The notes below the pieces were generated by a model, which saw nothing but the letters and a program-made list of their open reading frames with translations, was not told the origin of the DNA and searched no databases. From Mesotoga sp. Brook.08.105.5.1 (GTDB taxonomy: Bacteria > Thermotogota > Thermotogae > Petrotogales > Kosmotogaceae), in assembly GCF_002752635.1 (NCBI RefSeq), contig NZ_AYTW01000028.1, positions 1-64,000 of the forward strand: a stretch of DNA of 64,000 bases, in the 5' to 3' direction. Shown piece by piece: positions 458-17,826 of this stretch. The translations under genes were made by a program, and so were the position numbers. Within the stretch, counting starts at the first letter, position 1. Each line of letters opens with the position of its first letter.

Positions 458-536
458 ATCCGCTCTTTCCTACCCCCAATCTGCCACCTGCTACCACGCT
501 TCTGCTCGCGAACACCTTGCCTTGGACTCTCACATC

Positions 537-1607
537 TCACTGGGGATACTCCTTCACTCTTGCTACGGAGCTCCTCTCTATCAATTCTGGTTTGTGAACA
601 ACTCTGTGAGTATTGGAGCCATTTAGCATATCTAGAAGAATCTCGACTGATTTCCTTCCTACCTCTTCTTTAGGGTGGGCAAAGGTGGTGAGGACTTCTC
701 TGAAATCCCCGATTGGTCCGTCATCGAATCCGATTACGGAGATATCTTCGGGTATATTCAAGGCCAGTCTTTTGGCTACTAACTGAAGCTGAAGAGCGGT
801 CGCGTCATTGTAGCAGAATACTGCTGTCGGACGCAGCTGAGCGGGGAGAGACATGAGTTCGTGAGCTATCTGCATAGGCGCTCCAGTGAATTCCGAGACG
901 TTGAAGGACTTCTCGTAAATCTTTGTGAACCCAAGCTGCTTGCAACGGTCGACGAAACTCTTAGCCCTTATGACACCAGGCAGATGTGTTGACTTGTAGA
1001 TTACAGCAACTCTCTGGTGACCGTATTCAAAGAAGATTTCCGATGCCTTTTCTCCTCCATAGGCGTCATCGAGGACATTGCAGCTTACGTTATCAATATT
1101 CCAGTCACTGTGGACGAGAACGATCTTCACTCCAGATTTGGCCATCGACTTTACGAGATCCTTGTTTGACCTCTTAGTCGCGCTGTAGACTGGGTCGATT
1201 ATCAAGCCCTTCACTCCTGATTCGATCCACTCTGAAAGAATCTGCCTCTCCTTCACTGGATCTTCAGCCGAATTACCTAACAACATCTTGTATTCGTTCC
1301 GGAAGAGATGGTCTTCAGCTCCGAGAACAATATAAGGGAATATGTAGCTGGTTATCTGTTGCACAAGAATGCCGACAAGGTGGTTGTCGTGTCCATAACT
1401 GACGAAGGTTCCAAGGCCCGGTCTTCTTACGATAGCCGCTTCGAAAGAGAGCCGATCCAAAGCTTTTCGGACTGTCTCTCTGCTGGCACTAAACTTGTTC
1501 ATCAATTCCTTCTCTGTGGGGAGTTTATCCCCGACGGAATATTTCCCGGACTTGAGTTCTTCGAGTAAGTAACGTTCAATGAGAGTGTACTTCGGAGTGA
1601 TGGCAAT
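537..1607 (-). CDS. GntR-type HTH / LacI-type sensor transcriptional regulator, AraR-like
   Basis: A DNA-binding repressor for a sugar-utilisation regulon, by family resemblance. The first ~70 residues carry a GntR-type winged HTH (residues near GDKLPTEKEL and SRETVRKAL). The rest is a LacI/periplasmic-binding-protein-like sensor domain (VGILVQQI, VSVIGFDDG-like), the architecture of Bacillus AraR. A start at the TTG at 1505 would delete half of the HTH. The frame stays open to 1616 and codes the missing HTH, so translation must begin upstream. The best candidate is an ATT codon at 1607-1605 right after a GGGGGCG ribosome-binding site, with CTG at 1616 as the alternative. A promoter and a palindromic operator lie directly upstream, implying autoregulation. 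No sugar genes adjoin it, so its inducer cannot be read from context. About 356 residues. Confidence 0.8.
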   Translation of the reverse strand: MAITPKYTLIERYLLEELKSGKYSVGDKLPTEKELMNKFSASRETVRKALDRLSFEAAIVRRPGLGTFVSYGHDNHLVGILVQQITSYIFPYIVLGAEDHLFRNEYKMLLGNSAEDPVKERQILSEWIESGVKGLIIDPVYSATKRSNKDLVKSMAKSGVKIVLVHSDWNIDNVSCNVLDDAYGGEKASEIFFEYGHQRVAVIYKSTHLPGVIRAKSFVDRCKQLGFTKIYEKSFNVSEFTGAPMQIAHELMSLPAQLRPTAVFCYNDATALQLQLVAKRLALNIPEDISVIGFDDGPIGDFREVLTTFAHPKEEVGRKSVEILLDMLNGSNTHRVVHKPELIERSSVARVKEYPQ

Positions 1608-1621
1608 CGCCCCCAGTTAGA

Positions 1622-1633
1622 ATGTACGTACAT
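1622..1633. promoter_or_regulatory. Palindromic operator ATGTACGTACAT
   Basis: This perfect 12-bp palindrome lies between the -10 box and the start of the AraR-like gene. Its TGTACGTACA core matches my recollection of the core of AraR operators in Bacillus. It probably mediates autorepression by the adjacent regulator. Confidence 0.65.
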
Positions 1634-1638
1634 ATAGG

Positions 1639-1667
1639 ATTTTACACTTCAATGTTAGTTGAGTCAA
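1639..1667 (-). promoter_or_regulatory. Promoter of the AraR-like regulator gene
   Basis: On the minus strand TTGACT (1667-1662) is followed after exactly 17 nt by TAAAAT (1644-1639), a near-consensus sigma-70-type promoter. The operator starts 6 nt downstream of the -10 box, where a bound repressor would block initiation. Confidence 0.7.
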
Positions 1668-1839
1668 GTTTTCTTAGCAAGGACCTAGCCTCGATCGATA
1701 TTTGCCTTTCAAAGGTTATACGGAGAACAGTCCTTTCTGACAGAAAAGAGAACACCTGCCGGTGAGAATAGCCGTAAGGTCCTTTCTGAAGATTCTTTTC
1801 GAGAAGATCGAGATGATATACTTCAATCGGGAGGTGGAA

Positions 1840-2355
1840 ATGATGAAGAAATTACTGCTTGTAGTATTGATGGTTGTGGTTCTTTCTGTTTCTGCGTATG
1901 GATACACTTTCAACTCAAACAATATCGGAGCTTCAATCGCATACTTTCCCTTCATCCTTCAAACCTACTCGGCAAGGGGATATTATCACTTCGGTTTCAA
2001 GATAACGAATCCCTGGAGTATTGGCCCGATAGATTTTACTCAAGTTATGTTGTATGCCGGTCCCACAGTTTCCTACAGCTATGACAACGTTCATCACAGT
2101 TTTGAGGCAGGCATCAGCGGAAGACTCTTTTCTGGAATCGAAAATCTTTCTTTCAATCTTTTTGGCAGAAGATTCATGATTGCCGTGGGCCTAAGAGGTT
2201 CATCTACCTTCTCTTTCTCGACACTGAAGCTTGCAAAGCCTCAAATATCACCGGCTCTGAGCATTATCGATGTCACCAAAATGACAGACAGAATGAATTA
2301 CTCGTTGTTCTTCTGGCCGCTGCCGGTGCTCCTGGGATTTGATCTGTACTTCTAA
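1840..2355 (+). CDS. Small exported protein of unknown function
   Basis: The start ATG at 1840 (or 1843) follows the strong site GGGAGGTGG. Upstream in-frame ATG codons have no such site and would bury the signal peptide. The 171-residue product begins MMKKLLLVVLMVVVLSVSAYG, a classical signal peptide with likely cleavage after residue ~22. The mature part has about 150 residues rich in aromatic, Ser and Gly residues, with alternating hydrophobic patterns that suggest a small beta-barrel or beta-sandwich in the cell envelope. I do not recognise the family. It stands alone: the regulator upstream is divergent and the next gene is about 130 bp downstream. Confidence 0.65.
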   Translation: MMKKLLLVVLMVVVLSVSAYGYTFNSNNIGASIAYFPFILQTYSARGYYHFGFKITNPWSIGPIDFTQVMLYAGPTVSYSYDNVHHSFEAGISGRLFSGIENLSFNLFGRRFMIAVGLRGSSTFSFSTLKLAKPQISPALSIIDVTKMTDRMNYSLFFWPLPVLLGFDLYF

Positions 2356-2482
2356 TTGTTCAATGATGTTGTTCCTCAGTGCTCTTGCTTCCTACAATAA
2401 TAGGAGTTCGCAGAGAAGAATGAGCTCTTCCGGGTGAAGGATTTTTCTGATATGAAAATTACTAAGAGGATGTGATCCGCTT

Positions 2483-3022
2483 ATGAGAGTATTCTCTGTT
2501 ATGGGCAGTCCAAGATTGAAGGGCAATACTATGCTTGTCCTGGATAATTTCATGAAGGGAATTAGAGATGGACATGATAAGCTGGAACTGAAATCCGTCT
2601 TTCTTCATGGTAAAAAGATCGAACCGTGTGCGGGTTGCGACAAATGCAAGAATGATGGCGAATCCTGCGTAATTGAAGATGACATGCTTGATCTTTATGG
2701 TGAAGTCGTTGCCGCCAATGTGATTATCTTCTCTACGCCTATTTACTGGTGGAACATGAGTGCTCAGTTGAAGACTTTCCTCGACAGATTGTACGCGCTC
2801 GACTACGAAAAGGCCTTCAAAGGAAAGAAGTTTGTTCTTCTCATGACTTACGGTGGTGAGGATCCTAATTCTGGAGCCGAGATTGTCGAAAAGAGCATGA
2901 GAGAGATCTGTGACTTCGTTTCTATGGAGTTTGTTGCGAGCTTTGGAATGTGCAGCGAATTGAGTGAAGATGAAAGAGCGGAGGCTCTTGTAAAGGTCTA
3001 CAATCTTGGTCTTGACCTTTGA
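2483..3022 (+). CDS. Flavodoxin-family NAD(P)H-dependent FMN oxidoreductase
   Basis: A cytoplasmic FMN-binding reductase of the NADPH-dependent FMN reductase / iron-sulfur flavoprotein superfamily. The N-terminus has the phosphate-binding loop (GSPRLKGNT, residues ~8-16). A four-Cys stretch PCAGCDKCKNDGESC (~48-62) is typical of this superfamily; in iron-sulfur flavoproteins such Cys bind a 4Fe-4S cluster, but the spacing here is closer to the plain reductases. TPIYWWNMSAQLKTFLDR (~85-102) is the isoalloxazine-contact region. The length of 179 residues is normal. The substrate cannot be inferred; quinones, azo or nitro compounds are usual. It appears to be a single-gene unit with only a weak ribosome-binding site. 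Confidence 0.85.
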   Translation: MRVFSVMGSPRLKGNTMLVLDNFMKGIRDGHDKLELKSVFLHGKKIEPCAGCDKCKNDGESCVIEDDMLDLYGEVVAANVIIFSTPIYWWNMSAQLKTFLDRLYALDYEKAFKGKKFVLLMTYGGEDPNSGAEIVEKSMREICDFVSMEFVASFGMCSELSEDERAEALVKVYNLGLDL

Positions 3023-3164
3023 GCTCTATGCAGAACCAGTAGAACTTTGAAAGAATCTATTTGGCTTGAGTCCTTTCAGAGTCGAAGATAGCGTTGAATT
3101 CATTCCAAGGGCATTATGAGATTCGAATCTCTGCCACATTCAGATAGTGCCCCTTTCTATTCCA

Positions 3165-3570
3165 ATCATTACCCACATCATCTTCTATGAAGCTCGTCCG
3201 TCTCTTGCTCTCTCATCATCTCGCGGTTTTTGACTAAGAACCCGGACACGAAGTGTCGGATGAACCAATCTTCTGCTCTTGATCTTAAATCCCCTCTCGA
3301 GAGGGGTGTCGACGGCTTCATCGTCGACGGGGTGTGTGCTCTTAAGATCGGTGGAGCGTGAAGCTAGAGAAAGGGCATTTTCGAGACGTTCGCTTCGCTC
3401 ACGAGAGGACGAGAACTCCCTCTCTCCTGTTTCTCGTACTCTCTCCTCATCTCGTACTCTCGATGCTCTTCTTTGAAACAGACACCCTCCGCCACTTCGC
3501 GGACCTCCTCCCTCAAGAGAGGACTTAAGATCAGGATGATCAGGAGCAAAATACGAATTCACACAAGGAC
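3165..3570. repeat. Dispersed hairpin-rich repeat, copy A
   Basis: About 400 bp that recur, with strong identity, in the 13.5-13.95 kb region. The repeat contains successive stem-loops: GACACGAAGTGTC (3245-3257), CCCCTCTCGAGAGGGG (about 3292-3307), a TCGACG...CGTCGA stem (3308-3328) and a GC-rich stem near 3485-3500. These are separated by conserved non-palindromic stretches such as TTCTGCTCTTGATCTTAAATC. Open frames across it (for example 3185-3562) have low-complexity Arg/Ser/Glu products and are not credible genes. Confidence 0.8.
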
Positions 3571-3894
3571 CGGCTTGTCAGTGGCGTTAACTCCCTTGAA
3601 CGAAAAAAACGTCGCGATTACTGTCATTACAACTGCCGGTTCAGAAGTTCCCTATGTCTAACGAAGACACAAGAGAGAGTCTTGGAAAACTGATCAATCG
3701 AGAATCGGGAGACTGACGATCAAGGAAACACTCCTGTCCACTGGCGGAGCTGATTAAAAGGCTGTTCTTGAGTCTTAGAGTGTTCCTGAATGAAAATACT
3801 TTATCCGGGCGTTGAATTCCCTTGTTCTCCGCAGCAAGAAACGCACTCAGTCTTTAAATCACAGTTTCTGCGAAACTAATCCTAGGATTGCTCC
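3571..3894. other. Intergenic stretch, no gene seen
   Basis: Sequence between the repeat copy and the 3' end of the FAD oxidoreductase gene. Neither strand shows a ribosome-binding site with a plausible reading frame, and I saw no strong terminator hairpin. It may be eroded coding sequence. Confidence 0.4.
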
Positions 3895-5387
3895 TCATGC
3901 CGGCGGCTTTTCACTTTGCCCAAAGACCATGCCGAAATCCTTGCACAGGAACTGAACAGCTCTTCTTCCGGAATCCAGGGCAACCGGAAGCCCGCCGGGT
4001 GCTCTGAGTCGCTGGCCAGCAAAGTACAGATTCCGGATGTTTTCAGGCTTCGAAGGATAGTATTCCATCTTATACTCCTTGGTTGCTACAGTCATCCAGG
4101 ATCCTTTGAATGATCCCAGATACCTCTCATAGGTTAGTGGTGTTGCCACATCCCAAACGGCAGTCTTCTCGGCGGTCTGGGGTAACTTCTCAGATAATAT
4201 CTTAATGAAGTCCTTTGCCAGCTTTTCTTTTTCAATCTCGTACGTGCCGTCTTCCTTTCGGGCTTTCGAGTAATCATAAGTATCTCCAATAATTGCCGAG
4301 GTGACTGCCGTACAGCCTTTGGGCGCGTATCCCTCGTAGCCGGCGTAATTGCAGATCTTAATAACTTGTTCCTCCTTCCCACCGCACATAAGTGGCCTCA
4401 TAGGCACAAAACCCATTTTCTCCGGCAGCCCTTCCAGGTCGACCTCAATGCCGAGACAAATGAATGTGTTAAGCAAAGGTTTTGTGACTTTGCGCATCCT
4501 TTCTGTCCATGGTTCTCTAATGGGGAAATCGAATAAATCGTCGATTGCTGAGAGAGTGTCCCTGGTGACAATCACGGCCTCCGATTGAAGGAGTTCACCA
4601 TCCACGACAACACCGTCGGCGATGCCGTTTCTCACCGAAACTGTGTTTACCCGCATTCCGTAGCGAATCTTGCCGCCCAGAATATCGAATTTCTTTGCCA
4701 TACGCAAAGCCATACTGAGGGAGCCACCTTCAGGATAGCCGCCGTCGCCGGAGGCCAGAGTCGCGAAGGTGAAAACCAGGGCAGTAGCACTGTAATCGGG
4801 GCCTATGATGTTCTCGAACAGGCGCTGTAGTAGTTCGCTCTTGTATCTCATGCCATATTCTTTAGCCGACTGTCTTGCATAGTAGGGCATTTTGGGTAAT
4901 GCTGGCAGCATCCTCAAGATCGTACCCAGGGACATGAATGACTTCTTCTTAGTCTTCAATCCCTTGATGTCGGTCACCGGCATATTGAGCTTTGCGAATC
5001 TCTTCAAATCGCAGCATAGTTTGCTGATTTCTCTTCCATCCTCAGGTGAAAGCTCGATAAGATGATTGTGGAGTCTCTCCACATCACGGTAAAGGCGTGC
5101 TGTCCCTCGTATTCGAATGTGAGAAACACATCGCGATAGTGTACTGCGACGCTATCGTCTATAGCGCCAACTTCCCGCCAGAGTCTGTTAAGAGGTATAT
5201 CCGGGGATGAGCCGGTGAGCCAATGCATTCCACCTTCGAATAGATACCCCTTCCTTTTCCAGCTTGTCGAAGCTCCGCCCGGAATAGTGTGGCTCTCGTA
5301 AATAGTGACGTCGAATCCGCTTTGGAGAGCGTAAATCCCTGCTGTCAAACCTGCAATACCCGCACCGACTATGGCTATGTTTCTCAC
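3895..5387 (-). pseudogene. FAD-dependent phytoene-desaturase-like oxidoreductase, frame-disrupted
   Basis: Two overlapping reading frames together form one protein of about 495 residues. The N-terminal part (5387 down to about 5095) starts MRNIAIVGAGIAGLTAGIYA, the Rossmann GxGxxG motif for FAD, with IYESHTIPGGAS and GGMHWLTG following. The C-terminal part (about 5095 down to 3895) supplies YRDVERLHNHL and ends with the FAD-binding signature FAGQRLRAPGGLPVALDSGR. Family knowledge (CrtI / NAD(P)/FAD carotenoid oxidoreductase-like) expects these in a single chain. A net one-base shift near 5085-5100, around CACGCCTTTACC, separates them. Whether it is a true mutation or a sequencing error cannot be decided here. 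If repaired, it would be a cytoplasmic or membrane-associated polyprenoid or retinol-type oxidoreductase of unknown substrate. Confidence 0.8.
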
Positions 5388-6783
5388 ATTTTCCTCCTAT
5401 GTGTCGACTATCCAACTGCTTTCGAAATCCTGAAAGTCCAGGCTTATCACAGCTTGCTCTTCAATCCCGAATTGAGTCTAGTAAGCTCCGAGATGACTCA
5501 CTTTCTCTCATACTTGATCGATGAGGACTCTTGATCAATTGTTTTCACACATTTCGATGCCGTTCCCCACCAGTATGTAATTCACCCTCAACGACGAAAC
5601 AGAGGTGCGACCAGTCGCGTCCAATCAGGACTACTAGAGGGCAAAAGCGCTGTTCTTAATGCGACTGTACGCTAGCGAAACTTACAAGAAGCACGAAAGG
5701 GTTCTCGTTGACTCGCATCGAATACTGGTCGCGCCGTAATGTACATGGTGAGTTCCGAATACGCTTATCGTAAAATCAAATGTGTGGCGAGCCGACTCTC
5801 CGCTTCGTAAACTGCCCGACAACGGCAACTGTCTTTGTCTAGAGTCGCTTCATGCGGACAAGAGACTCTTTTGCAGTCTCAAGAATCTCTTCTTATGACT
5901 CCAGCAGAGCGAAATTCCTTCTGAATTATATGGCGTTTCCCGAATACACGTCTAATGATATACCCTTTTTGATATTGTGAGAACAGGTCTGAAATCGATT
6001 CTAAGGAAGACTTTGCGAAAACAGATCGTCAAATGCGGCAGGTATTCCAGCCTCCGAAATCATTTCATCATCTTTCAGACCTCGGGGAAATCCCGAAGCA
6101 TCGAGTCTCTTGAGATGTTCGCAAATCTAACCTAAAATGTCTGGAAGAAACCCACCGTCTCAGGAATCTGCTTATCTTCAACTGCATGGCGCTCCACCAG
6201 CGAGTCCTATTTCATTGATAATCATTGTCTCGATGAAATCTGACCTGGAAGAACGATCAGAACCAAGTCTTGCACCCTTCACGCAAAACATCAATTCATT
6301 CTCCTCTCGTTCAAACCAAGTTTTGCGCTCAACTCATCTGATAAGAAAGACAAGTCAACAAAAAAGACGCCTGAAAACAAATGAAGAAACTGTCGAGGAT
6401 GTGAAAGATCTCCTATGGAATTAGATATACCGAAACCCCAAACTTTCGATAATTGCTCTGAAATTAGAGCATTGTCAAACACCAAACCAAGGAAATCTCT
6501 TCATCTGTATTCGCCCTATTTCCAGTGTGCGGTGGAAGTCTCGATATTGATTACCTGAACGTAGGCAGGAGTCTCAATAGCCAAGAGCCTCGACTGTCCT
6601 CAAACAGCGCAAATCGAGAATCCAGAAGAGGGTGTAAACTCTTCGGACAAAGACCCGGAGGATGCCTGAAATGAAGAAGGCAGATGCTGATTAGTAGTAG
6701 GGCAAATGATTAAGTATTAAGATTAAGTCATTAAGTATAATTAATCCATTGATTATGATAAGATTGATTAAAGAGATAATGTT
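5388..6783. other. 1.4-kb gene-poor stretch upstream of the fibre-like locus
   Basis: No frame longer than about 95 codons is open, and none has a ribosome-binding site plus a recognisable product. Stops are frequent in all frames. The last 80 bp are AT-rich with repeated ATTAAGT units (6713-6735) and a TATAAT at 6736-6741, and probably carry the promoter of the downstream exported protein. Confidence 0.45.
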
Positions 6784-6798
6784 TTGGAGGTGAGACTA

Positions 6799-7332
6799 AT
6801 GAGAAAGACGCTACTATCGGCAGTGTTCGTCACCTGCCTCGTGATGATAGTCTTCAGTGCACAAAACACTGCTTCTCAGGAACTGAGAATCATCGTTGAA
6901 TCTGTGGCTTTGCTAGACGTCTCGAACTCATCAGTCTCTTTTGAGATCCCCCAGGAGATGATCGTACCCGGGTCAGCAATCTTTCTCCAGAACATTGAAG
7001 GTGGCCACTTGAAGTACACTTCTCTTACGGAAGCTGGGAGTTTGAGAAAGATTACCGCTTCGCTCTCCGACTTCTCGTTGCTGGAAGTGCTCGAGATTGG
7101 TATTACGGTCAGTGCGCCCGATAGTGGAAGGGGAAGGGTTGGAGTTTCCAGTGGAAGAGTCTTGCTCACGGCTGACCCTCAACCTGTGGTTGAAGGTATT
7201 GGCAGCGGATGGACCGGTACTGAAGATGCAGATGGTGCAATGGTGGTTTATGATATCAACATGTTCTCCGCGGAAATGCTAGTAGATGGTGTGGTAAATC
7301 TGGAAGTCTTATTCACTCTTACAGAAGGTTAA
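6799..7332 (+). CDS. Exported beta-rich protein, putative fibre subunit (paralogue 1)
   Basis: The ATG at 6799 lies 8 nt after GGAGGTGAG. The TTG at 6784 would start inside the ribosome-binding site. The 177-residue product has a signal peptide (MRKTLLSAVFVTCLVMIVFSA) and a mature part rich in beta-strand patterns. It aligns by eye with the 204-residue protein encoded at 11327-11941: ESVALLDV versus NEIALLAV, LKYTSL versus LRYTSL, RKITA versus RKVTT, TGTEDADG versus TGTEANAG, and the end LFTLTEG versus IFTLVDES. This makes the two secreted paralogues. The gene is convergent with the outer-membrane barrel gene and their stop codons overlap (TTAA). I infer a pilin- or coat-like subunit handled by the chaperone-like and barrel proteins; the family itself is not recognised. 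Confidence 0.7.
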   Translation: MRKTLLSAVFVTCLVMIVFSAQNTASQELRIIVESVALLDVSNSSVSFEIPQEMIVPGSAIFLQNIEGGHLKYTSLTEAGSLRKITASLSDFSLLEVLEIGITVSAPDSGRGRVGVSSGRVLLTADPQPVVEGIGSGWTGTEDADGAMVVYDINMFSAEMLVDGVVNLEVLFTLTEG

Positions 7333-9944
7333 TCGAGAACTCCCGAATCAATAAAGATTATTTCCTCGCTCTTCTTTCTTATTTCAAGAGTTACTTCTAT
7401 TATGTCGCCGGGCTTCAACTCCAGCTCGACAGAATCCCTGTCTGCCACAAATCCTTTGGGAAGTGTTCCGGCCTCAAGGCGCAGTAGCCATTTGCCGGGC
7501 CTTAGATTTGGAACCGAAATCTCCCCATTGTCTCTGGTTACAAGTCTGAATCTCTCATCTTCACTTTCCAGTACGAGATTCACGCCTCTGATGGAGAGGG
7601 GAGTCTGTTCCATGTTCCTTACCCTAACCCTAAGAGCCGCCGATTGGACCAGTGTTATTGAAAGATCCTTTTCTTCATTTGCCGAGATTGTTATCTCAAT
7701 CGGCAGCCTATCGCTGCTTATCAAGCCTCTCTGAAGAGAGTCATTGTCAATGTCAAAGAAATAAGTGCCGGGCTTCAGCCCGCTAAACATGAATCTCCCG
7801 TCTTCGCCAGTTATTGCTACGAGGTTGTTGAGTTTTAGAACAGCTCCCTCTAAAGGTATTTCGTTTCCCTCTGAAGAGATTACGATCTTCCCTGAAAGCG
7901 AACCCAGGTCTCTTCTTGGCCAAAATGGGATTGAAAAGGGGAAGGAATAACCTGCAGTGAAAGCCCCTGAAGGAATCCAGTTTGTCTTATCCGTCATTGC
8001 GATACTGGCCGAAGCGTTAATCGAACCGCCGTTTTGAAGGATCTTCGAAAAGGATATTCTGGCCGTGAGCTTCACAGGATCAAAGTTGTTCATCACATAT
8101 GTCAGTGATCCGTCGAATCTGTATCCATCTTCCATCAGAAGAGTGCCGACTAATGCAGCCGTGGTCTCGAATCTTTCCTTGACGTAGTCTTTGAGGGTAA
8201 GCCTCGCGTTTAGATAGGCGTTTCCCGATAATCTGTAAGATCCGTAGACATCAAGCTGAATGGTTTTCTTATCAACGTTCTCAATCCGACTAAGCTGAGC
8301 GGAAAGAGAGCCAAATAGGCTGAAACTCCCTGGATAGTATGAGGCTGCCAGATTTCCGCCCAGGGTGGCGGCCGGAGTTGTCAGGCTCCTGCTGCCGCTT
8401 GAATTGTAGTAACCCCCCATGCTTATCCTCAGTCCGGAAAAGGTTGGAAAGTCAAACCTGCCGCGAAGAGAATAGCTGTTCAACAACCCCTGCAGAGCGA
8501 GATCGAAGGGATTATCGCGCTGGACCGTTCCCTCGAAAGAGATCCTGTAGGAATCAGGTTCCTGCCATACGACAGCGGCATCGAGTTTGAGCGCTTCGCT
8601 TCCGGGCTGTCCGCTGATCTTCTTCGAGTAATCTGCGGCCGATCTCAGCTGAAAGTAGCCGAGGCGGCTGGAAAACACATATCCCAGCTTCAGCCCGTCG
8701 TACTTCCCATCTAGGAAGGAGACTCTTAGAAGGGAGCTTGTCGAGACCGGTTCCAGACCGGACTCTATTGCCAGAGATGAATGAATTATATTCGACGAGC
8801 CGAAGCTTCCGTCAACAGCAACCCCTGCCGATAGATTTTCCAGGAGATTCCAGTCTGCGAAGAGCCCCAAAATGGACAGGTCTTCCGAGAGTATTGCGCC
8901 CATTCTAAGAGAGTCAAGACTTAGATTGAGATCGAAGCCCCTTGCTGACGTTCCAAGATTCACCGAGGCCAGGCCCGCTCTGCCGAGAACTCCGTATCCG
9001 ACTTCAAGCAATTCCCCTCTGTAACGTAGATCTAATGAAAATCTGTTGTCTTCATCTTTGCCAATTATCGGCAGAGAGCCGTTCAGACTTATGCTTCTGG
9101 TTTTCGCGTCATTCAGAAAGCCGTCAATCTTCAAAGCCGCGTTCAGCAAGAAGCCGTCTGAATAACCGGCAGTGATCGACAGCCTGGTGGGCAGTACTCT
9201 GAATCTGTTTGCCAGGGAATCGGCCGGAGGAAGAAGAAGCACCGAAGATCGACCCGACACGAGGCCTGCCTCTCCCGACTCCCCTGTCGCCGTTAAAATG
9301 ATAATGTGATTTCGCTGTTCTGTGAGGAAAGCGGAAGTTTTCACGGTGACCTTCACTTCGCCGGAAGCCGAAGGCTGGAGCTGAAGTCTTTGTATACTTA
9401 GCCTTAGAGTGTATGACATATTGTCAATGGCTCCCAGCTCAAGATAGGCAGGAACGTTGCCGTTATTGGCAACCGAGAATACGACCGAGTATTCTTCCCC
9501 AGCAGTTACATAAGAAGGAGCCTCAACAAGCCGGATTGCTAAAGACATGCTCGCGGCCACTCTGACAGTGAAATTCAGCTCAGCCGACTCGCCTCTCTTA
9601 TCTTTGACTTCATAGCGTACATCATACTCTCCGGCTAGAGGTGTGGAGGGCACGAGGAAGCTTAGAAGGCGTATCTCGAAGGAGTCGGCCCCCACCTGAA
9701 AGGCTGATACGCCAAAAACGTTTCGCCAGCCGGGCGGCAGCGACAGCTCCTCAGCGAAGTCTAGATCATCATGGGTGTTGTTTGTTACAAGAACAGCAAT
9801 CGTGACTATCTGACCTGGCACGACTTCTCCGGGAGGAGGAGTCGAGAGAACCAGTTCAAAATCTACTGCACCTAGCAGCGCGGAAAGTGAAAGCAGAAGA
9901 AATATAAGAAAGGAGGCTCTTATACGAGACTGAACATCTCTCAC
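7329..9944 (-). CDS. Large outer-membrane barrel protein, usher-like
   Basis: An 871-residue exported protein. After a signal peptide (SFLIFLLLSLSALLGA) come two Ig-like/NEW3-type domains (about residues 25-130 and 135-235). A central stretch of ~450 residues has alternating aromatic and polar strands (for example LDLRYRGELLEVGYGV, LAASYYPGSFSLFGSLS) typical of a large outer-membrane beta-barrel. Two carboxypeptidase-regulatory/SdrD-B-like domains follow (GSLSGKIVISSEG..., DGRFMFSGLKPGTYFFDI). The barrel followed by GxLxGxV...GRxxFxxLxPGxY domains resembles ushers and usher-like secretion barrels. The GTG at 9944 overlaps the stop of the chaperone-like gene as GTGA, so it is the preferred start. 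ATG 9974 is an alternative. The role as a secretion and assembly channel is inferred. Confidence 0.7.
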   Translation of the reverse strand: MRDVQSRIRASFLIFLLLSLSALLGAVDFELVLSTPPPGEVVPGQIVTIAVLVTNNTHDDLDFAEELSLPPGWRNVFGVSAFQVGADSFEIRLLSFLVPSTPLAGEYDVRYEVKDKRGESAELNFTVRVAASMSLAIRLVEAPSYVTAGEEYSVVFSVANNGNVPAYLELGAIDNMSYTLRLSIQRLQLQPSASGEVKVTVKTSAFLTEQRNHIIILTATGESGEAGLVSGRSSVLLLPPADSLANRFRVLPTRLSITAGYSDGFLLNAALKIDGFLNDAKTRSISLNGSLPIIGKDEDNRFSLDLRYRGELLEVGYGVLGRAGLASVNLGTSARGFDLNLSLDSLRMGAILSEDLSILGLFADWNLLENLSAGVAVDGSFGSSNIIHSSLAIESGLEPVSTSSLLRVSFLDGKYDGLKLGYVFSSRLGYFQLRSAADYSKKISGQPGSEALKLDAAVVWQEPDSYRISFEGTVQRDNPFDLALQGLLNSYSLRGRFDFPTFSGLRISMGGYYNSSGSRSLTTPAATLGGNLAASYYPGSFSLFGSLSAQLSRIENVDKKTIQLDVYGSYRLSGNAYLNARLTLKDYVKERFETTAALVGTLLMEDGYRFDGSLTYVMNNFDPVKLTARISFSKILQNGGSINASASIAMTDKTNWIPSGAFTAGYSFPFSIPFWPRRDLGSLSGKIVISSEGNEIPLEGAVLKLNNLVAITGEDGRFMFSGLKPGTYFFDIDNDSLQRGLISSDRLPIEITISANEEKDLSITLVQSAALRVRVRNMEQTPLSIRGVNLVLESEDERFRLVTRDNGEISVPNLRPGKWLLRLEAGTLPKGFVADRDSVELELKPGDIIEVTLEIRKKSEEIIFIDSGVLD

Positions 9945-10720
9945 TCTATCTTCATTGAATACTGAGCGCCCCATACGTCTTCACCGTCTCTTATAAGAGC
10001 AAGGACTCTGTAGTCTCCTGGAGAAAGACCTTCAAAGGGTACAACGAAGCGGCCGGAGGTCTGAGGATATAATCTCAGGGTGTTACCCATGAATTCGCCG
10101 ACAACTTCTCCCGCTTGATTGAAGATGCTGGCCGATACCTCGGGTCTCATCCACCAGTCAGAGGTATTCTTGATATCCATGATCAAGGAGTAGACTCCGT
10201 CGTTATTCGAGAGACTTCTTCCAACAATCTCGATGCTTCTGGATTCAGGTTCGCCGAAATTTGTGACGACCTGGACAGCGTAGCGCGTCTTAGTTCTGAC
10301 TGTAATTCCCTCCAGCTCTTCATCTGCGAAAGCGATAATGGGCTCGACCATGATGACTCCCCAGTAAGTGCCGGAAAGATTCTCGTCTGATGGAACAATA
10401 ACCGAGAAGGAGTAGGTCATGTTCGAATTTCCGGGCACTGTTACTTCCGGCGCCTGAAGTTCGATCCAGTTAGCATTTGATCGTTGCAGGCTTCCGGCTT
10501 CGGGATATTCCGTCGAACCCGTGTGGTGAAAGAAGTAATCTGTCAAGTAGAAGCGAACTATCGCCGGCTCGCTCGCGTTGTTTTGGAGTTCGATTCTTCC
10601 CGAAAGCACCTGGCCTGAGGAAGCAGCGAATATATGAGTTAGACCGTTTATTATGAGAACATCTGCCCTCAACGTGATCACCGAAAGCATTAGGAGGAAC
10701 AGGACGAACTTCTTTGACAT
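9941..10720 (-). CDS. Periplasmic chaperone-like exported protein
   Basis: The product has 259 residues with a signal peptide (MSKKFVLFLLMLSVITLRA), preceded by CGGAGCTG. The mature protein reads as one or two Ig-like beta-sandwiches. The first has the series GRIELQNNASEPAIVRFYLTD, a conserved Asn-flanked strand, VTVPGNSNMTYSFSVIVP and LSGTYWGVIMVEP, which resembles the G-x-I-x-V-x-N ... Y-x-V-x-VP layout of PapD-like periplasmic chaperones and chaperone-like proteins in alternative fibre systems. It sits between the putative subunits and the barrel protein, and its stop is coupled to the barrel gene start. The assignment rests on pattern and context, not on a family match. Confidence 0.6.
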   Translation of the reverse strand: MSKKFVLFLLMLSVITLRADVLIINGLTHIFAASSGQVLSGRIELQNNASEPAIVRFYLTDYFFHHTGSTEYPEAGSLQRSNANWIELQAPEVTVPGNSNMTYSFSVIVPSDENLSGTYWGVIMVEPIIAFADEELEGITVRTKTRYAVQVVTNFGEPESRSIEIVGRSLSNNDGVYSLIMDIKNTSDWWMRPEVSASIFNQAGEVVGEFMGNTLRLYPQTSGRFVVPFEGLSPGDYRVLALIRDGEDVWGAQYSMKIE

Positions 10721-10754
10721 GTTTATCAGCTCCGTTTTAACAACACTAACAGTA

Positions 10755-11321
10755 TTATATTTCGCCCAGATCTATAACCGTGAAGGTAATTACACTGTCA
10801 CCCAAGAAGCTCACATCGTCCGGGTCCAATAGATATTGAACATAGAAGGTTATGACTTCCCCTACTGGATGAAAAACGATATCCAGGAAATCGCTGGCGA
10901 CTCCTTGGGTGGCAAGCGTCAAATATCCGTTGTAGAGCAGCGTAACAGAACCCCTTTTGTTTGAGGGGTTCCAAAGGATCGGCTCCGACGAGAGCCTGAG
11001 AGAAATCTGAGCACCGGAAGAGAGAGTCGCCATGACTCTGAACTTTCTGTCTTTCCCTTGACCGCCTGCGATCTCAGGGCGTTCGATAACGATCATCGTT
11101 GCATCCTCGGGGCTGACAAGAGATCCCGAGCTGAAAGCAGGGCCGTCTCCCGCTAACTCCGGTGAAGCCGAGACAAGCTCCCAGGCTACGTCAGTTGTGA
11201 CCTTGCCCGTTGCTGAAAGCGTCACGGCCTGAAGAGAAACGGCAAGAATCAGAATGCCAAGACAAAGAAGCAGCGCTTTGCGCTGCTTCAATGCAATGTA
11301 TGTCCTGATAAGGAAGATCAT
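10755..11321 (-). CDS. Exported beta-rich protein, putative fibre subunit (paralogue 2)
   Basis: The product has 188 residues. The N-terminus MIFLIRTYIALKQRKALLLC... continues into a hydrophobic segment (LCLGILILAVSLQAVTLSA), an uncleaved anchor or a long signal peptide. The mature region ends SVITFTVIDLGEI, like the ends of the two other subunit candidates, and contains RKFRVMATLSSGAQISLRL, matching RKVTTEFSPIPAGFSISLA in its upstream neighbour. The start lies 5 nt after the stop of that gene without an obvious ribosome-binding site, suggesting translational coupling. The function is inferred from this resemblance and operon position. Confidence 0.6.
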   Translation of the reverse strand: MIFLIRTYIALKQRKALLLCLGILILAVSLQAVTLSATGKVTTDVAWELVSASPELAGDGPAFSSGSLVSPEDATMIVIERPEIAGGQGKDRKFRVMATLSSGAQISLRLSSEPILWNPSNKRGSVTLLYNGYLTLATQGVASDFLDIVFHPVGEVITFYVQYLLDPDDVSFLGDSVITFTVIDLGEI

Positions 11322-11326
11322 TTACT

Positions 11327-11941
11327 TTATGACTCATCCACCAGTGTGAAAATAACCGTAATAATTGTGTTTACTGCATTCAAGAAATCACCGTCAAGCA
11401 GATCGTTTCCTAGATCATTCAGCGCGGTTATGTCTGCAGTGTAGGTCAGCGGATGGCCGGCGTTTGCCTCAGTTCCTGTCCTAGCAAGACCTGGGCCAAT
11501 TGCAGTGACAAGATCACCACTAAGCGTTGTTCCTACAAACTCAAGTGTAGTACCGCCAGCTCCAACGTTTCCCTTAGCAGAACCGTCGGTAGCGCCTGCA
11601 GCAAGAGATATTGAGAAACCAGCCGGAATCGGGCTGAACTCAGTCGTTACCTTTCTCGTGAGACCCGCAAATCTCAAAGATGTATACCTGAGATATGTGG
11701 GATCGTGTTCGACAGAAACAACAGGGGCCGCACCGGCTAACTCTGGCTGAGTTACAGCGATCGTCACGCCTGGAGCGTCAGCAGTTGTTGGCCCAGTAGA
11801 TGCCTCCTCACCAGTTACCGCAAGAAGCGCAATTTCATTCATCGTGATCGTGATCGTTTGCGTGTCTGTGTTAGTGTCCAGCGCCATTACAAAAGCACCC
11901 ACTAGAATCGACATTGCTAGAATTACGAAAAACTTTTTCAT
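11327..11941 (-). CDS. Exported beta-rich protein, putative major fibre subunit (paralogue 3)
   Basis: First gene of the minus-strand locus. The ATG at 11941 follows GAGGTGGG; an in-frame start 12 nt upstream lacks spacing to a ribosome-binding site. The 204-residue product has a signal peptide (MKKFFVILAMSILVGAFVMA). The mature part is very rich in Ala, Thr and Gly (about 180 residues, few charged residues), a composition common in pilins and coat proteins. It shares the YTSL, RKVTT, TGTE and terminal VIFTL motifs with the gene at 6799-7332. Being first in the operon fits the most abundant product. A palindrome upstream may be its operator. Confidence 0.65.
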   Translation of the reverse strand: MKKFFVILAMSILVGAFVMALDTNTDTQTITITMNEIALLAVTGEEASTGPTTADAPGVTIAVTQPELAGAAPVVSVEHDPTYLRYTSLRFAGLTRKVTTEFSPIPAGFSISLAAGATDGSAKGNVGAGGTTLEFVGTTLSGDLVTAIGPGLARTGTEANAGHPLTYTADITALNDLGNDLLDGDFLNAVNTIITVIFTLVDES

Positions 11942-13440
11942 TACCCACCTCATCTAATTTGAATGATCTATATTAGTTGATACTAATACGCAATTTCATT
12001 TCCGGATTTCTTCGCGAGCATCTGAACCCAGCTCACAAATCAATTATAGATCAAACGGCCAACTGACTGATGTCTTTTTCATTAAGGTTAAACGACTGTG
12101 TTCTCGCGTAGCGATTACAAACAGTAACATTTTCACTCTAGGGAGATGCCCGAAGAAGTTGAAGACTGCACAAAAGATCGTGGCAACTGGTCGATCCGCA
12201 AAAAGATAAACTTGAATTCGAGTATTCTACTGCTTGTCATAACCAGTTCGTGCAGGTTATCGACGCAGTTCATATTTTTGAAGAAAGCGAAAGGATTCGA
12301 GCGAGAAGCTCTTTACGGTCGAAGAGCAGCTTACACTTCCTTCTGAAAACAGTCCCTTATCTCGCCCGGCGGGAAAAGGGTTGCCTGTGCGTTGAAACAG
12401 GCGGGCTGGAGCGGGGACATGCTTTCGAAAGCCGTCGCAGCCTTTGAGTTAATTTATTAGACCAGTATTAGTGTAATAAACGTTCGAACGATTATTTCGT
12501 TATTAGTTTTGCTACTTGGGATCCTGCTCAAATAGACCTGTATTTCTCAGAAAACCGGTGGAGAAAGAGAGAAGAACATAGGCCAGTTGAAATGGAGTCA
12601 GAAGAATTACGTTTTGTTCTCGTTGCAGCCTTGCCGGGAAGCAGGGAGAATGAAGAAAAGAAAGCTGTTTAGACTGCCGGTACATAGATGAAGAACCTAT
12701 GAAAGGCTCACATTCTTCGTATATCGCTAGTACGCGCAATGAACAGATATTCTTCAAGGTTCCAGCTGCCGAAGAGCGATGTGAAAGACTTCGATAAGGT
12801 CAAAGTGTTCCTCATAAGCTCTGAGAGAGCTCCAGGAACTTTCGTTGACATATGCGAGAGGTTGTGTCTTATCCTCTGATTCGAAGCAAGCTGCGTGCGT
12901 TGTGTCGGACGGAGACGATTCATGAATTGATAACGGCTTGCTCAAAATTATGAATCTCTCTGATCTGTAAAGAAAGCGACTTGGAGTTGAACATGATCTC
13001 ATCATTTAACTCGTTGTCCGGGCAGAGTAGGGTTTTTTGCTGAGCCGAATTGAATACTGGACCGTTCAGTATGATTGTTCAACGAAGATAATTATATCGA
13101 GCTTTTGAAGAAGAAACTGCTGGCGACGGCACCGAATGTAACTCCACAGAGAATCGCCGGTTTGCCTCTACAGCCAACAGAACCGAGATTTCTAAGCTCC
13201 ATCTCGATGGGAATAAGATAGCAGATATCTCAGCTCAATAGCCCCAAGAGGGCAAGAGTCCAGAAAGGAAGACTTCACTGAAAAGTGTTGATGGAACAGA
13301 GATCGATGGCGTACTGAATCTGCCTGTCGGTTTCGATGATTCAAGAGATATTTTCTCGCAGTCCCGGTTCAAGGAGGGTTTACCAGGACGGCCTTTGCAG
13401 CGATGATAGCGAGTAGCTACTAACCGATCGAATGACTAGT
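11942..13440. other. 1.5-kb gene-poor stretch upstream of the fibre-like locus
   Basis: No convincing gene. The first 100 bp carry the presumptive promoter of the minus-strand operon (TTGCGT, then TATAGA about 15 nt later). Around 13,285-13,390 one frame reads SVDGTEIDGVLNLPVGFD, which faintly resembles the start of a prolyl-oligopeptidase-type domain. It is too short to call and could be a relic. The remainder looks like eroded sequence. Confidence 0.4.
11971..11988. promoter_or_regulatory. Inverted repeat TATTAGT-N4-ACTAATA
   Basis: A perfect 7-bp inverted repeat with a 4-nt spacer, 30 nt upstream of the first fibre-subunit gene and between its possible -35 and -10 elements. It could bind a repressor dimer; no regulator is encoded nearby. 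Confidence 0.45.
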
Positions 13441-13890
13441 GTCTAAAGCTCATCATCTCGTGGCTCTTTGCTAATAACCTGGACACGAAGTGTCTGATGA
13501 ACCAATCTTCTGCTCTTGATCTTAAATCCTCGCTCGAGCAGCTCATCATTACCCACATCATCTTCTATGAAGTTCGTCTCTTGCTCTCTCATCATCTCGC
13601 GGTTTTTGACCAAGAACTTGGACACGCAGTGTCAACGATGAACCGCTCTTCTGCTCTTGATCTTAAATCCCCGCTCGAGCGGGGGGGACCGCTTGCGGTG
13701 GGGTGTGTGCTCTTAAGATCGGTGGAGAGTGGAGCGTGAAGCTAGAGAAAGGGCATTTTCGAGACGTTCGCTTCGCTCACGAGAGGACGAGAACTCCCTC
13801 TCTCCTGTTTCTCGTACTCTCTCCTCATCTCGTACTCTCCATGTTCTTCTTTGAAACAGACACCCTCCGGCACTTCGTGGCCCTCCTCCC
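13441..13890. repeat. Dispersed hairpin-rich repeat, copy B with a partial extra unit
   Basis: A partial unit (about 13,447-13,540) is followed by a full unit (13,541-13,890) nearly identical to copy A. The hairpin at 13,669-13,684 reads CCCCGCTCGAGCGGGG where copy A reads CCCCTCTCGAGAGGGG, so paired bases changed together. The next stem is ACCGC-TT-GCGGT where copy A has a different stem of TCGACG type. The GACAC...GTGTC hairpin is kept in all units (13,486 and 13,621). Reading frames over the block are repeat by-products. Confidence 0.8.
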
Positions 13891-14240
13891 TCAAGGGAGG
13901 ATTCAAGATCAGGATCATCAGGAGCCAAATACAGTTACACTGCCAAAGGAGAAGGAGCATAATGTGATTTCTTTTTGGCTCCCCAACTAATGGGTAATGA
14001 TGAGCGCCTTCAAGGGAGGACTTAAGATCAAGATCATCAGGCGCCAAATACAGTTACACTGCCAAGGGGGAAGAAGCATAATATGATTTCTTTTTAGCTC
14101 CTTAACTTATGGGTAATGATAAGCCCTCAAGGGAGCACTTAAGATCAAGATCATCAGGAGCCAAATACGAATTCGCGCAAGAATCAGCATATTTATGGCA
14201 TTTGACTCCCTGACTTATGGATAATGATAAGATTTCTAAG
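13891..14240. repeat. Three tandem ~118-bp units at the end of the dispersed repeat
   Basis: The string GATCATCAG recurs at 13,913, 14,032 and 14,149 (spacing 119 and 117 bp) within units that share TCAAGGGAG...TTAAGATCA, GCCAAATAC, and a closing TATGGRTAATGAT. Copy A at 3.5 kb has only one such unit, so the tandem array is a local expansion. Confidence 0.75.
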
Positions 14241-14313
14241 AGCTGAGGTGGCCCATTCTTTTAGTGGTAGTCTCGTTTTCTCCAATCAATTTTCCCAGCC
14301 ACTTTTCCATCTA

Positions 14314-14341
14314 TTGACAGTCAGCAATAACGGTATATAAT
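14314..14341 (+). promoter_or_regulatory. Promoter of the TetR-family gene
   Basis: TTGACA (14,314-14,319) and TATAAT (14,336-14,341) are both exact consensus hexamers separated by 16 nt. This is the strongest promoter match in the window, placed directly before the operator and the TetR gene. Confidence 0.8.
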
Positions 14342-14346
14342 CTTTT

Positions 14347-14360
14347 TGACTAACCAGTCA
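14347..14360. promoter_or_regulatory. Operator TGACTAACCAGTCA
   Basis: An inverted repeat TGACT-N4-AGTCA located just after the -10 box, followed by a further AGTCA. It is typical in form of TetR-family operators and is likely bound by the product of the next gene. Confidence 0.65.
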
Positions 14361-14375
14361 GTCAGGAGGTCGAAA

Positions 14376-15101
14376 TTGAAATCCTCAGATGTCAACGAGG
14401 CTCGAGAAAGAATAATAAAATCATCGATTGCGTTGTTTTCTCAAAAGGGATTTCACGCCACAACTGCAAGCGAGATAGCGGAAGCTGCGGGCGTAACCAA
14501 AGGTCTCATATACTATTACTTCAATAGCAAGGAAGAGATTCTTAGCCACATCGTGGATTCTCTGCTAAAAGACGCGACGACGATAGCGATGGACTTCGTT
14601 CAGGCAAGTATTATCCAGATGATAAGAGATGGCGAGCTAGATATAGAGCATGACAGGATGAAGTTCATCGATGAAGACTCGGTTGCGCGTTTCGTGAAGA
14701 GGTCGCTCTTCTATTACAGCAGGGTACTCGATTATCTAATTGAGAACAGGCTAATTCTGAGAATATTGATGTTCGAATCCTTGAAAGAAAGCAAACACCA
14801 CGACGACCTCTTCAGATTGCTTGATCTCACAAGAGATACCGAGGACAACCAGATTTTCAAATCGATTTCCGAGGCAGATAGCGACTTCAACTACTCGTCA
14901 GAAATGACGCTTTTCAAATTCTTCTTCTCGATAATTCCACTTGTAACCTTTGCGGCTTACTACGACGACCTCAAAAAGAAGAGTCTGATGAGTGATGAAG
15001 AGTTGCGCAATTCGTTTTTACAATCATTTCGAGTTGTTCTCTCTTCTCTGATAAAAGGGACCGAGATTTCTTTGAGGAAAGGAAATCTTGGTCAATCGTG
15101 A
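14376..15101 (+). CDS. TetR/AcrR-family transcriptional regulator
   Basis: The TTG at 14,376 follows AGGAGGT by 5 nt and is preferred over an in-frame TTG in the operator. The product has 241 residues. The N-terminal HTH has the family signature: ARERIIKSSIALFSQKGF, TTASEIAEAAGVTKGLIYYYF, NSKEEIL (about residues 8-55). The C-terminal ~180 residues are helical with no recognised ligand. The perfect promoter and overlapping inverted repeat upstream indicate autorepression. The next gene in the same direction, 112 bp downstream, is a P-type calcium pump. Co-regulation is possible, but no copy of the operator was seen in front of the pump gene. Confidence 0.9.
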   Translation: MKSSDVNEARERIIKSSIALFSQKGFHATTASEIAEAAGVTKGLIYYYFNSKEEILSHIVDSLLKDATTIAMDFVQASIIQMIRDGELDIEHDRMKFIDEDSVARFVKRSLFYYSRVLDYLIENRLILRILMFESLKESKHHDDLFRLLDLTRDTEDNQIFKSISEADSDFNYSSEMTLFKFFFSIIPLVTFAAYYDDLKKKSLMSDEELRNSFLQSFRVVLSSLIKGTEISLRKGNLGQS

Positions 15102-15213
15102 TCGGAGCTCGCCAGCGAGAAGTTTTCACGAAGCTTTCTGGTGGGACTTCCTAGTTTTAGACGATTCTCATCTGGAATGAATAGTTAGATAAATGAAAAT
15201 TGTGGAGGATACT

Positions 15214-17826
15214 ATGACTTGGCATTTCATTGAGATAAAAGCAGTTACCGAACAACTTGAAGTCGATCCAGAAGTAGGCCTTAGCTTTTCTGAAGCGGAA
15301 GAACGTCTGGGCAAATACGGCGAAAACATTCTCCGCGAGGAGAAAAAGAAGACGAATCTTGAACGCTTTGTAGAGCAGTTCAAGGACGTTATGATAATCA
15401 TTCTGATTGCCGCCGCGGCGATTTCGTTTCTTGTCTCGATCTTCGAAAAGGAAGGGTTCTTTGAGCCGGTTCTGATAATGCTTATTGTCATCTTGAACGC
15501 TGTTATCGGTGTAATACAGGAGAGCAAGGCAGAGAAGGCTCTGGATGCCCTGAAAAAGCTTTCCTCGCCAAACGCCAGGGTAATCCGTGACGGAGAACAG
15601 AAGTTGATTCAAGCATCGAAACTGGTGCCGGGAGATATTATCCTAATTGAGGCCGGTGATTTTGTTCCTGCCGACGCGAGAATCATTGAAAGTGCGAGTT
15701 TGAAGGTCGACGAGTCTGCCCTGACCGGTGAATCGGTCCCCTCCGAGAAATCGGCAGATGCAATCGTTAAGGAAGAGGCCTCTATCGGTGATAGACACAA
15801 CATGGTTTTCTCGGGATGCGGCGTCAGCTATGGAAGAGGGAAGGTCGTCGTCGTTGAGACTGGAATGAAGACAGAAATGGGAAAGATCGCAGGCCTGCTT
15901 TCAGGAGAAGAAGACACTCAGACTCCTCTTCAACATAGACTGGCCGCTCTTGGGAAGTATCTCGGCATCGCCGCTCTTATCGCCTGTGGAGTGATTTTTC
16001 TTGTCGGGCTTATTGAAGGTATTCCAATAATGGAGATCTTCATGATCTCTGTTTCGCTCGCGGTTTCAGCGATTCCGGAAGGGCTTCCGGCGATTGTGAC
16101 CGTTGTGCTTGCCATTGGAGTCCAACGAATGGTGAAGAGAAACGCTATTATTCGGAAGCTGCCCGCCGTGGAGACTCTCGGAAGCGCTACGGTAATCTGT
16201 TCAGATAAGACGGGAACTCTCACACAGAATAAAATGACCCTGGTCAAGGCCTTTTCGGCTTCTTCGTCAGTTACTGAGGAGATCAGCGATGATAACTCGT
16301 CTGACATAAAGGACCTCTTGCTGTACGCTACGCTTTGTTCTGACGGCAGAGTCGTTATTGAGGATGGAGAAGAGAAGCACATCGGTGACCCGACTGAGAC
16401 CTCTATAGTGCTGGCAGCCATGAGAAATGGGATCCTAAAAGATGAGATAGAGAAGAAGTATCCGAGACTGGCCGAGATACCGTTCGATTCTGAACGGAAA
16501 ATGATGACAACTATTAACGGCATCGATGGAAAAAACGTAGTAATTGTAAAAGGCGCAATAGATTCAGTTTCCACAAGATGCACATCAGGAGATGTTCAAA
16601 AGGGTAGAGAGATCGCGGAGGAAATGGGTAGCAGCGCGCTTCGAGTTCTTGCCGTCGCCTACAAAGAAATCCAAAAAATTCCTGCGACCCTCGATCCAGC
16701 TGAGATTGAGAGTGGTCTTACGTTTCTCGGTCTCGTAGGTATGATAGATCCGGCGCGTCCCGAGGCGAAAGAGTCCGTCAGACTGTGCCGGCAGGCAGGG
16801 ATCAGGCCGGTTATGATCACCGGCGATCACAAACTCACAGCTGCGGCTATTGCCAGAGAAGTCGGCATCTTGCTTGATGGAGATGAGATTGTAACCGGAA
16901 TTGAGCTGTCAAAAATGCCTGATGATGAACTGGACAGGAGGGTAAGAAATATCTCGGTCTATGCAAGAGTGTCGCCGTCAGACAAAATCAGGATCGTTCA
17001 TGCATTGCAAAAGCAGGGTGAAGTCGTTGCAATGACGGGGGACGGGGTGAACGACGCTCCAGCTCTAAAAGCTGCCGATATCGGATGCGCGATGGGAATA
17101 ACCGGAACAGATGTTGCGAAGTCCGCGGCCGACATGACCCTTACCGACGATAATTTCGCGACGATTGTATACGCCGTTAAGGAAGGCCGCGGCATATACG
17201 ACAATATCAGAAAAGTGGTCGGTTTCCTTCTGGGAACAAACATTGGAGAGATACTTACAGTCTTCACCGCCATGATGATCTGGAGAGAAGCCCCGCTGAT
17301 ATCTGCGCAACTGCTCTGGATAAACCTCGTGACCGACAGCCTGCCAGCGATCGCGCTCGGCATGGAGCCAGTGGAGAAGGATGTCATGAATAGAAAGCCT
17401 AAACCTAAGAATGAAGGCATTTTTGCCGGGGGACTGGGACTTCAGGTTCTTCTTCAAGGAGCTATGTTTGCCATTCTCACTTTGATTGGCTTTGCGATTG
17501 GCTGGAAGAGCACCGGAGATGTTATTGCAGGAAGAACCATGGCCTTTGTGATTCTTTCTTTGACTCAGATCTTTCACTCGTTTAATATGCGGTCAAGTCA
17601 CTCGCTGTTCAGAATCGGGATCCTTTCAAACAAAGTGCTATTTCTTGCTGTGCTGACTTCGTTTACGATGGTGGCTGCCGTTGTTTTCATCTCTCCTTTC
17701 GCGACAATCTTCGGATTGGCTCAACTGGAGACACCGATGTACGTTCTGGCTCTCCTTCTCTCGCTGGTGCCTATTCCCGTAATTGAGATTGCGAAGTTGA
17801 TTGGACTGATTCGCCACAAGCGTTGA
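15214..17826 (+). CDS. P-type Ca2+-transporting ATPase (type IIA)
   Basis: An 870-residue inner-membrane pump that couples ATP hydrolysis to cation, most likely Ca2+, export. The ATG at 15,214 follows GTGGAGG; an earlier ATG at 15,193 has no such site. An N-terminal cation-ATPase domain (residues ~1-70) is followed by the actuator loop with LTGES (~169-173), the conserved transmembrane helix 4 motif PEGLPA (~287-292), the phosphorylation site CSDKTGTLTQNKMT with Asp ~331, the hinge MTGDGVNDAPAL, and a C-terminal domain with the helix NLVTDSLPAIALGMEP. PEGLP plus NxxTD matches the SERCA/PMR1-like bacterial Ca2+ pumps. The length is normal and the gene is intact. Confidence 0.93.
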   Translation: MTWHFIEIKAVTEQLEVDPEVGLSFSEAEERLGKYGENILREEKKKTNLERFVEQFKDVMIIILIAAAAISFLVSIFEKEGFFEPVLIMLIVILNAVIGVIQESKAEKALDALKKLSSPNARVIRDGEQKLIQASKLVPGDIILIEAGDFVPADARIIESASLKVDESALTGESVPSEKSADAIVKEEASIGDRHNMVFSGCGVSYGRGKVVVVETGMKTEMGKIAGLLSGEEDTQTPLQHRLAALGKYLGIAALIACGVIFLVGLIEGIPIMEIFMISVSLAVSAIPEGLPAIVTVVLAIGVQRMVKRNAIIRKLPAVETLGSATVICSDKTGTLTQNKMTLVKAFSASSSVTEEISDDNSSDIKDLLLYATLCSDGRVVIEDGEEKHIGDPTETSIVLAAMRNGILKDEIEKKYPRLAEIPFDSERKMMTTINGIDGKNVVIVKGAIDSVSTRCTSGDVQKGREIAEEMGSSALRVLAVAYKEIQKIPATLDPAEIESGLTFLGLVGMIDPARPEAKESVRLCRQAGIRPVMITGDHKLTAAAIAREVGILLDGDEIVTGIELSKMPDDELDRRVRNISVYARVSPSDKIRIVHALQKQGEVVAMTGDGVNDAPALKAADIGCAMGITGTDVAKSAADMTLTDDNFATIVYAVKEGRGIYDNIRKVVGFLLGTNIGEILTVFTAMMIWREAPLISAQLLWINLVTDSLPAIALGMEPVEKDVMNRKPKPKNEGIFAGGLGLQVLLQGAMFAILTLIGFAIGWKSTGDVIAGRTMAFVILSLTQIFHSFNMRSSHSLFRIGILSNKVLFLAVLTSFTMVAAVVFISPFATIFGLAQLETPMYVLALLLSLVPIPVIEIAKLIGLIRHKR

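Follow-up and report, generated by a model that had tools for sequence, protein, structure and literature searches.

A conserved gene cluster of Mesotoga with chaperone–usher-like anatomy and a putative WxLIP-type chaperone

Gene layout and genomic setting

The stretch of 64,000 nucleotides analysed here, the first of contig NZ_AYTW01000028.1 of Mesotoga sp. Brook.08.105.5.1, is termed the window throughout the paper, and all coordinates refer to it. Four coupled genes were found on its minus strand and a third subunit gene was found converging on them, as an earlier sequence-only reading had described. The minus-strand open reading frames (ORFs) extend over 11953-11327, 11321-10755, 10720-9941 and 9974-7329, the convergent plus-strand ORF over 6784-7332. 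From sequence reading, ATG 11941 and ATG 6799, both of which have a Shine-Dalgarno-like sequence, were preferred as starts of the two outermost genes, and 11321, 10720 and GTG 9944 for the others. In this order the minus-strand genes encode a type A subunit of 204 aa (11327..11941), a type B subunit of 188 aa (10755..11321), a putative two-domain periplasmic chaperone of the WxLIP type of 259 aa (9941..10720), and a usher-like outer-membrane barrel of 871 aa (7329..9944; 881 aa for the full ORF). The plus-strand gene encodes a second type A subunit of 177 aa (6799..7332). Gaps of 5 and 34 bp separate the first three genes, followed by a 4-bp overlap in which the start of the barrel gene and the stop of the chaperone gene share the sequence GTGA; the same junction reads ATGA in the relative from a second genus of the family (G010). 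The stop of the plus-strand gene overlaps that of the barrel gene. Signal peptides were recognised at all five N-termini, and the five proteins are predicted to be exported. The nature of the products was likewise confirmed: two exported proteins rich in beta structure, an Ig protein with two domains, and an outer-membrane barrel of 871-881 aa.

At 11289-11267 (minus strand), just past the first type A gene, the beginning of the second subunit gene contains a perfect 10-bp hairpin with a T-rich stretch after it. The hairpin is identical in the congeners G002 and G003, and a function as attenuator setting the subunit ratios is possible.

The cluster lies in a region of about 10 kb (3165-13932) bounded by direct repeats of about 400 bp with 89% identity, the left copy at 3165..3554 and the right copy at 13545..13932. 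In a sister species (G009) the sequences corresponding to 509-3195 and 14124-16700 are only about 550 bp apart, compared to 10.9 kb in the window; a single repeat-like stretch was found between the joined flanks, and the cluster region is absent. In G003 the cluster has neighbours that differ from those in the window. Because the flanks are joined in one relative and the neighbours differ in another, the cluster is considered variable and was probably gained or lost as a block. Within the bounded region, a FAD/amine-oxidase-like gene (3895-5387, minus strand) is split into two overlapping frames of 127 and 395 aa and is apparently frameshifted. The DNA of this FAD oxidoreductase left flank was unmatched in all seven congeners searched.

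Subunits and the two-domain chaperone

Type A subunits are encoded at both ends of the cluster. The protein encoded at 11327..11941 consists of a signal peptide, an amphipathic N-terminal extension (TDTQTITITMNE), a beta domain and the C-terminal strand ITVIFTLVDES. The family comprises more than 130 paralogues in the fetched loci, with up to five or six per locus; their mature N-termini alternate (e.g., TQTITITMNEIALL, SHKVNIEIPEVALL) and their C-termini end in strands such as VTYTLTD or VTYTLTDN-like sequences. No Pfam or NCBIfam family was found for type A, none of the families hit by 57 type A subunits was a WxL domain, and a search of the PDB with the subunit profile yielded nothing significant. 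Type B is present as a single copy and is devoid of the amphipathic N-terminal extension. At profile level (hhalign) it matched at 91% a type B set from other phyla, which occurs once or twice per locus there. Type B is a candidate for the tip or base subunit.

For the 259-aa protein the sequence-only reading had suggested a comparison with PapD-like chaperones. At the sequence level it does not belong to the PapD family: PF00345 (PapD_N) matched neither the window protein nor 50 homologues at an E-value of 0.01, and PapD entries remained unmatched when the PDB sequences were searched with the chaperone profile. Instead, the family profile matched WxLIP1 of Enterococcus faecium (EfmWxLIP1; PDB 9i25, 9i1y) over both domains (profile positions 41-264, E-value 8.5e-11). 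The window protein by itself gave weak Pfam matches to WxLIP_PGBD and WxLIP_HBD (0.019/0.035). Among 50 family members PF06030 was found in 10 and PF11797 in 3, the latter with E-values down to 1.7e-9 in single members.

The two-domain chaperone fold was found in a homologue. The folded chain was L125, a subunit-plus-chaperone stretch of Maribellus luteus, which is in frame with one stop codon read as Q. As a single chain it was predicted with a pLDDT of 83 and a pTM of 0.73, with about 390 of 492 residues ordered. With so many ordered residues a pTM of this height would hardly be expected if subunit and chaperone were not packed together, and it is read here as a predicted interface. The first fold match of its chaperone half was WxLIP bound to WxL (E-value 4e-14, Z 14.4, rmsd 6.2 over 230 residues). 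CfaA (Z 11.1), CsuC (10.4) and FimC (10.3) followed, matching over both domains, and Caf1M was also found within this group of pilus chaperones at Z 9-11. For the subunit half of the chain, VIA listed no fold. In profile–profile comparison the chaperone matched archaic pilus chaperones at 96%, compared to at most 0.5% for reversed or shuffled columns. The same profile also matched the two Ig domains of the barrel protein at 97.6%; the tandem-Ig similarity is therefore generic.

In the Gram-positive WxL clusters, composed of WxL proteins and a WxLIP (DUF916-DUF3324), WxLIP is predicted to supply the strand that completes the WxL sandwich, and it was proposed as part of a surface complex, not as a chaperone (PMC10599100). 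The chaperone described here is a full-length homologue of WxLIP, however, in diderm hosts and with an outer-membrane barrel as nearly constant neighbour. This kinship, together with the proposed role of WxLIP and the small number of subunits per locus, would fit a diderm counterpart of the WxL complex, static at the surface or in the periplasm, in which the barrel only anchors or displays the proteins and nothing is polymerised. We regard such a complex as unlikely, since WxLIP possesses a C-terminal transmembrane helix whereas the window protein ends with WGAQYSMKIE straight after its second domain, since WxL domains were not recognised in the subunits, and since as many as five or six type A paralogues at one locus, together with the N-terminal extensions, suit a polymer better.

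The outer-membrane barrel

The barrel protein, numbered according to the 881-aa ORF, consists of two Ig domains (40-240), a barrel of about 26 strands (258-686) and two C-terminal transthyretin-like domains (690-870). Pfam assigned NEW3/Ig domains, followed by CarboxypepD_reg (702-775) and a SpaA-like domain (794-864). A model calculated from 54 sequences (pLDDT 86.7, pTM 0.63) showed two Ig sandwiches, 26 long strands and two small C-terminal sandwiches. The usher signature PF00577 was without match in the whole genome, where an E. coli control was detected by the same search, and in the Pfam scan of the barrel. An inserted plug is absent: the longest insert of the barrel has 24 residues or less in all 53 homologues, and the model contains no plug-sized loop. 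A GD...RG motif in common with ushers was looked for and was absent from the archaic ushers compared.

Using Foldseek, the best eight matches of the barrel model were FimD, with E-values down to 8.7e-17 over 764 columns, followed by PapC, with a whole-chain TM of only 0.29 for the FimD match. VIA gave MtrB as best match (Z 22.5, 403 residues, rmsd 4.3), ahead of LptD (Z 18.1), PapC (17.8), FimD (16.4), TonB receptors and porins. MtrB, the 26-stranded barrel of the Mtr electron conduit, gives the best superposition, but the cluster described here was seen without a cytochrome gene and its barrel carries additional Ig and transthyretin-like domains. In profile–profile comparison with archaic ushers the C-terminal part matched at 94.5%, the barrel part at 1.5%, close to the reversed control with 1.3%. 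The earlier proposal of a usher-like barrel thus held for the two C-terminal domains and for the top rank of FimD by Foldseek, but not for the PF00577 signature and the inserted plug.

Overall, the locus shares with the known chaperone–usher pathways (Csu, CfaA/CFA-I, Fim, Pap) an operon of exported beta subunits, a two-domain Ig chaperone and a large barrel followed by two C-terminal sandwich domains, and at fold level it matches CfaA, CsuC, FimC and FimD. In contrast to these pathways, the PapD and usher sequence families are unmatched, the plug is absent, about 26 strands replace 24, an N-terminal Ig pair takes the place of the usher N-terminal domain, and the subunits fall outside the known pilin families. 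The anatomy resembles that of a chaperone–usher pathway; membership is contradicted by the two unmatched sequence families and by the missing plug. A true archaic chaperone–usher member, with the usher plug lost and the sequence drifted past recognition, would account for FimD as top Foldseek match over most of the barrel protein and for the matches of chaperone and usher C-termini to archaic profiles. It is nevertheless quite improbable in view of the differences in Pfam matches, Ig domains, plug and strand number, and in view of a chaperone whose relative by sequence is WxLIP.

Distribution and proposed assembly pathway

Within the genus, the cluster is intact in G002; G003 also has it, the barrel frame being interrupted solely by unread N bases. 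G010 carries it on a contig that starts partway through the second subunit gene. In the other seven congeners searched, the barrel was unmatched over most of its length. A first contig scan by tblastn with the barrel alone as query yielded zero relatives, whereas the chaperone profile did find relatives. The 75 chaperone loci obtained span Bacteroidota, Chlorobiota, Deinococcota, Armatimonadota, Synergistota, Aminicenantes and others; in 71 of them a barrel gene on the same strand lies within 1 kb downstream, with a median gap of 9 bp. The components previously proposed to belong together, namely the subunits, the Ig chaperone of two domains and the usher-like barrel with its pair of C-terminal domains, form a conserved unit. 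As the arrangement is kept in G002, G003, G010 and 71 of the 75 loci, it is far from chance. Ordinary outer-membrane porin or adhesin genes located beside unrelated exported proteins might be considered, given that several large barrels resemble the one described here with comparable Z; coupled genes with the same partners in the same order, recurring across phyla, contradict this explanation and make it extremely improbable.

The gene set recurs in at least seven phyla, unnamed there, and is not specific to Thermotogota. The chaperone profile matched named loci in Bacteroidota, Chlorobiota, Aminicenantes, Spirochaetota, Armatimonadota, Synergistota and Thermus, and matched 56 of 111 Deinococcota genomes and 70 of 390 genomes sampled over the domain, the latter tally including secretin-linked relatives of Thermotogota. 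In the chaperone tree the Kosmotogaceae form one clade (100/100) beside the chaperones of Bacteroidota (join 88/87). Pfam ushers were absent from the Thermotogota genomes searched, except for one sub-threshold match. A published survey of secretion systems, which omitted chaperone–usher systems, singled out the Thermotogae as the one diderm clade lacking all of those considered (PMC4793230). A plasmid collection searched with the barrels of Thermus and Chryseobacterium yielded only three Deinococcus records. On the Deinococcus plasmid NZ_CP026517 (L165) the genes for the barrel homologue and those around it carry the annotation hypothetical, with a BTAD regulator nearby.

Considering gene content, conservation and folds together, the locus probably encodes a chaperone–usher-like fibre-assembly pathway of a class not yet described, with a chaperone of the WxLIP type. 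A description of such a system was not found in the literature searched. The former suggestion of a possible distant or independent variant proved right, with a WxLIP family chaperone and a barrel devoid of the usher signature. From genes and models, by which the system is known here, we infer the following scheme. All five proteins would be exported by Sec. In the periplasm the WxLIP-type chaperone would bind each subunit, most likely by donating a beta strand of domain 1, and would carry it to the barrel, where the N-terminal Ig pair may receive the complex. Subunits would then be joined by donor-strand exchange, in which the next type A subunit inserts its amphipathic N-terminal extension in place of the chaperone strand, and the growing polymer would exit through the wide barrel as a fibre with a presumed adhesive role. 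Type B, without an extension, would be located at the fibre tip or base.

More tentatively, the system may represent a third, independently organised chaperone–usher pathway, widespread in non-proteobacterial diderms, with a chaperone of common ancestry with the Gram-positive WxL-interacting proteins. If true, strand-donating assembly of surface proteins would be older than, and common to, the monoderm and diderm lineages. Common environmental phyla appear to contain an entire class of fibre machinery without annotation, as with the “hypothetical protein” entries in Deinococcus. The system would also connect the pilus chaperones, in a way that can be tested, with the Gram-positive WxL system and its unsettled role.

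A related but different gene set was observed in Thermotogota and one other phylum (L037:3399-9687, L029, L030, L034, L035, L036). It comprises a protein of about 550 aa with WxLIP-like domains (PF06030 with 34 bits in L037) and a secretin (PF00263, E-value 1e-37 in L037). Two or three further genes encode small exported beta proteins, some of which end in AGNYTGSITITI-like strands; a regulator-like gene often adjoins. The same class of chaperone may serve a secretin exit there.
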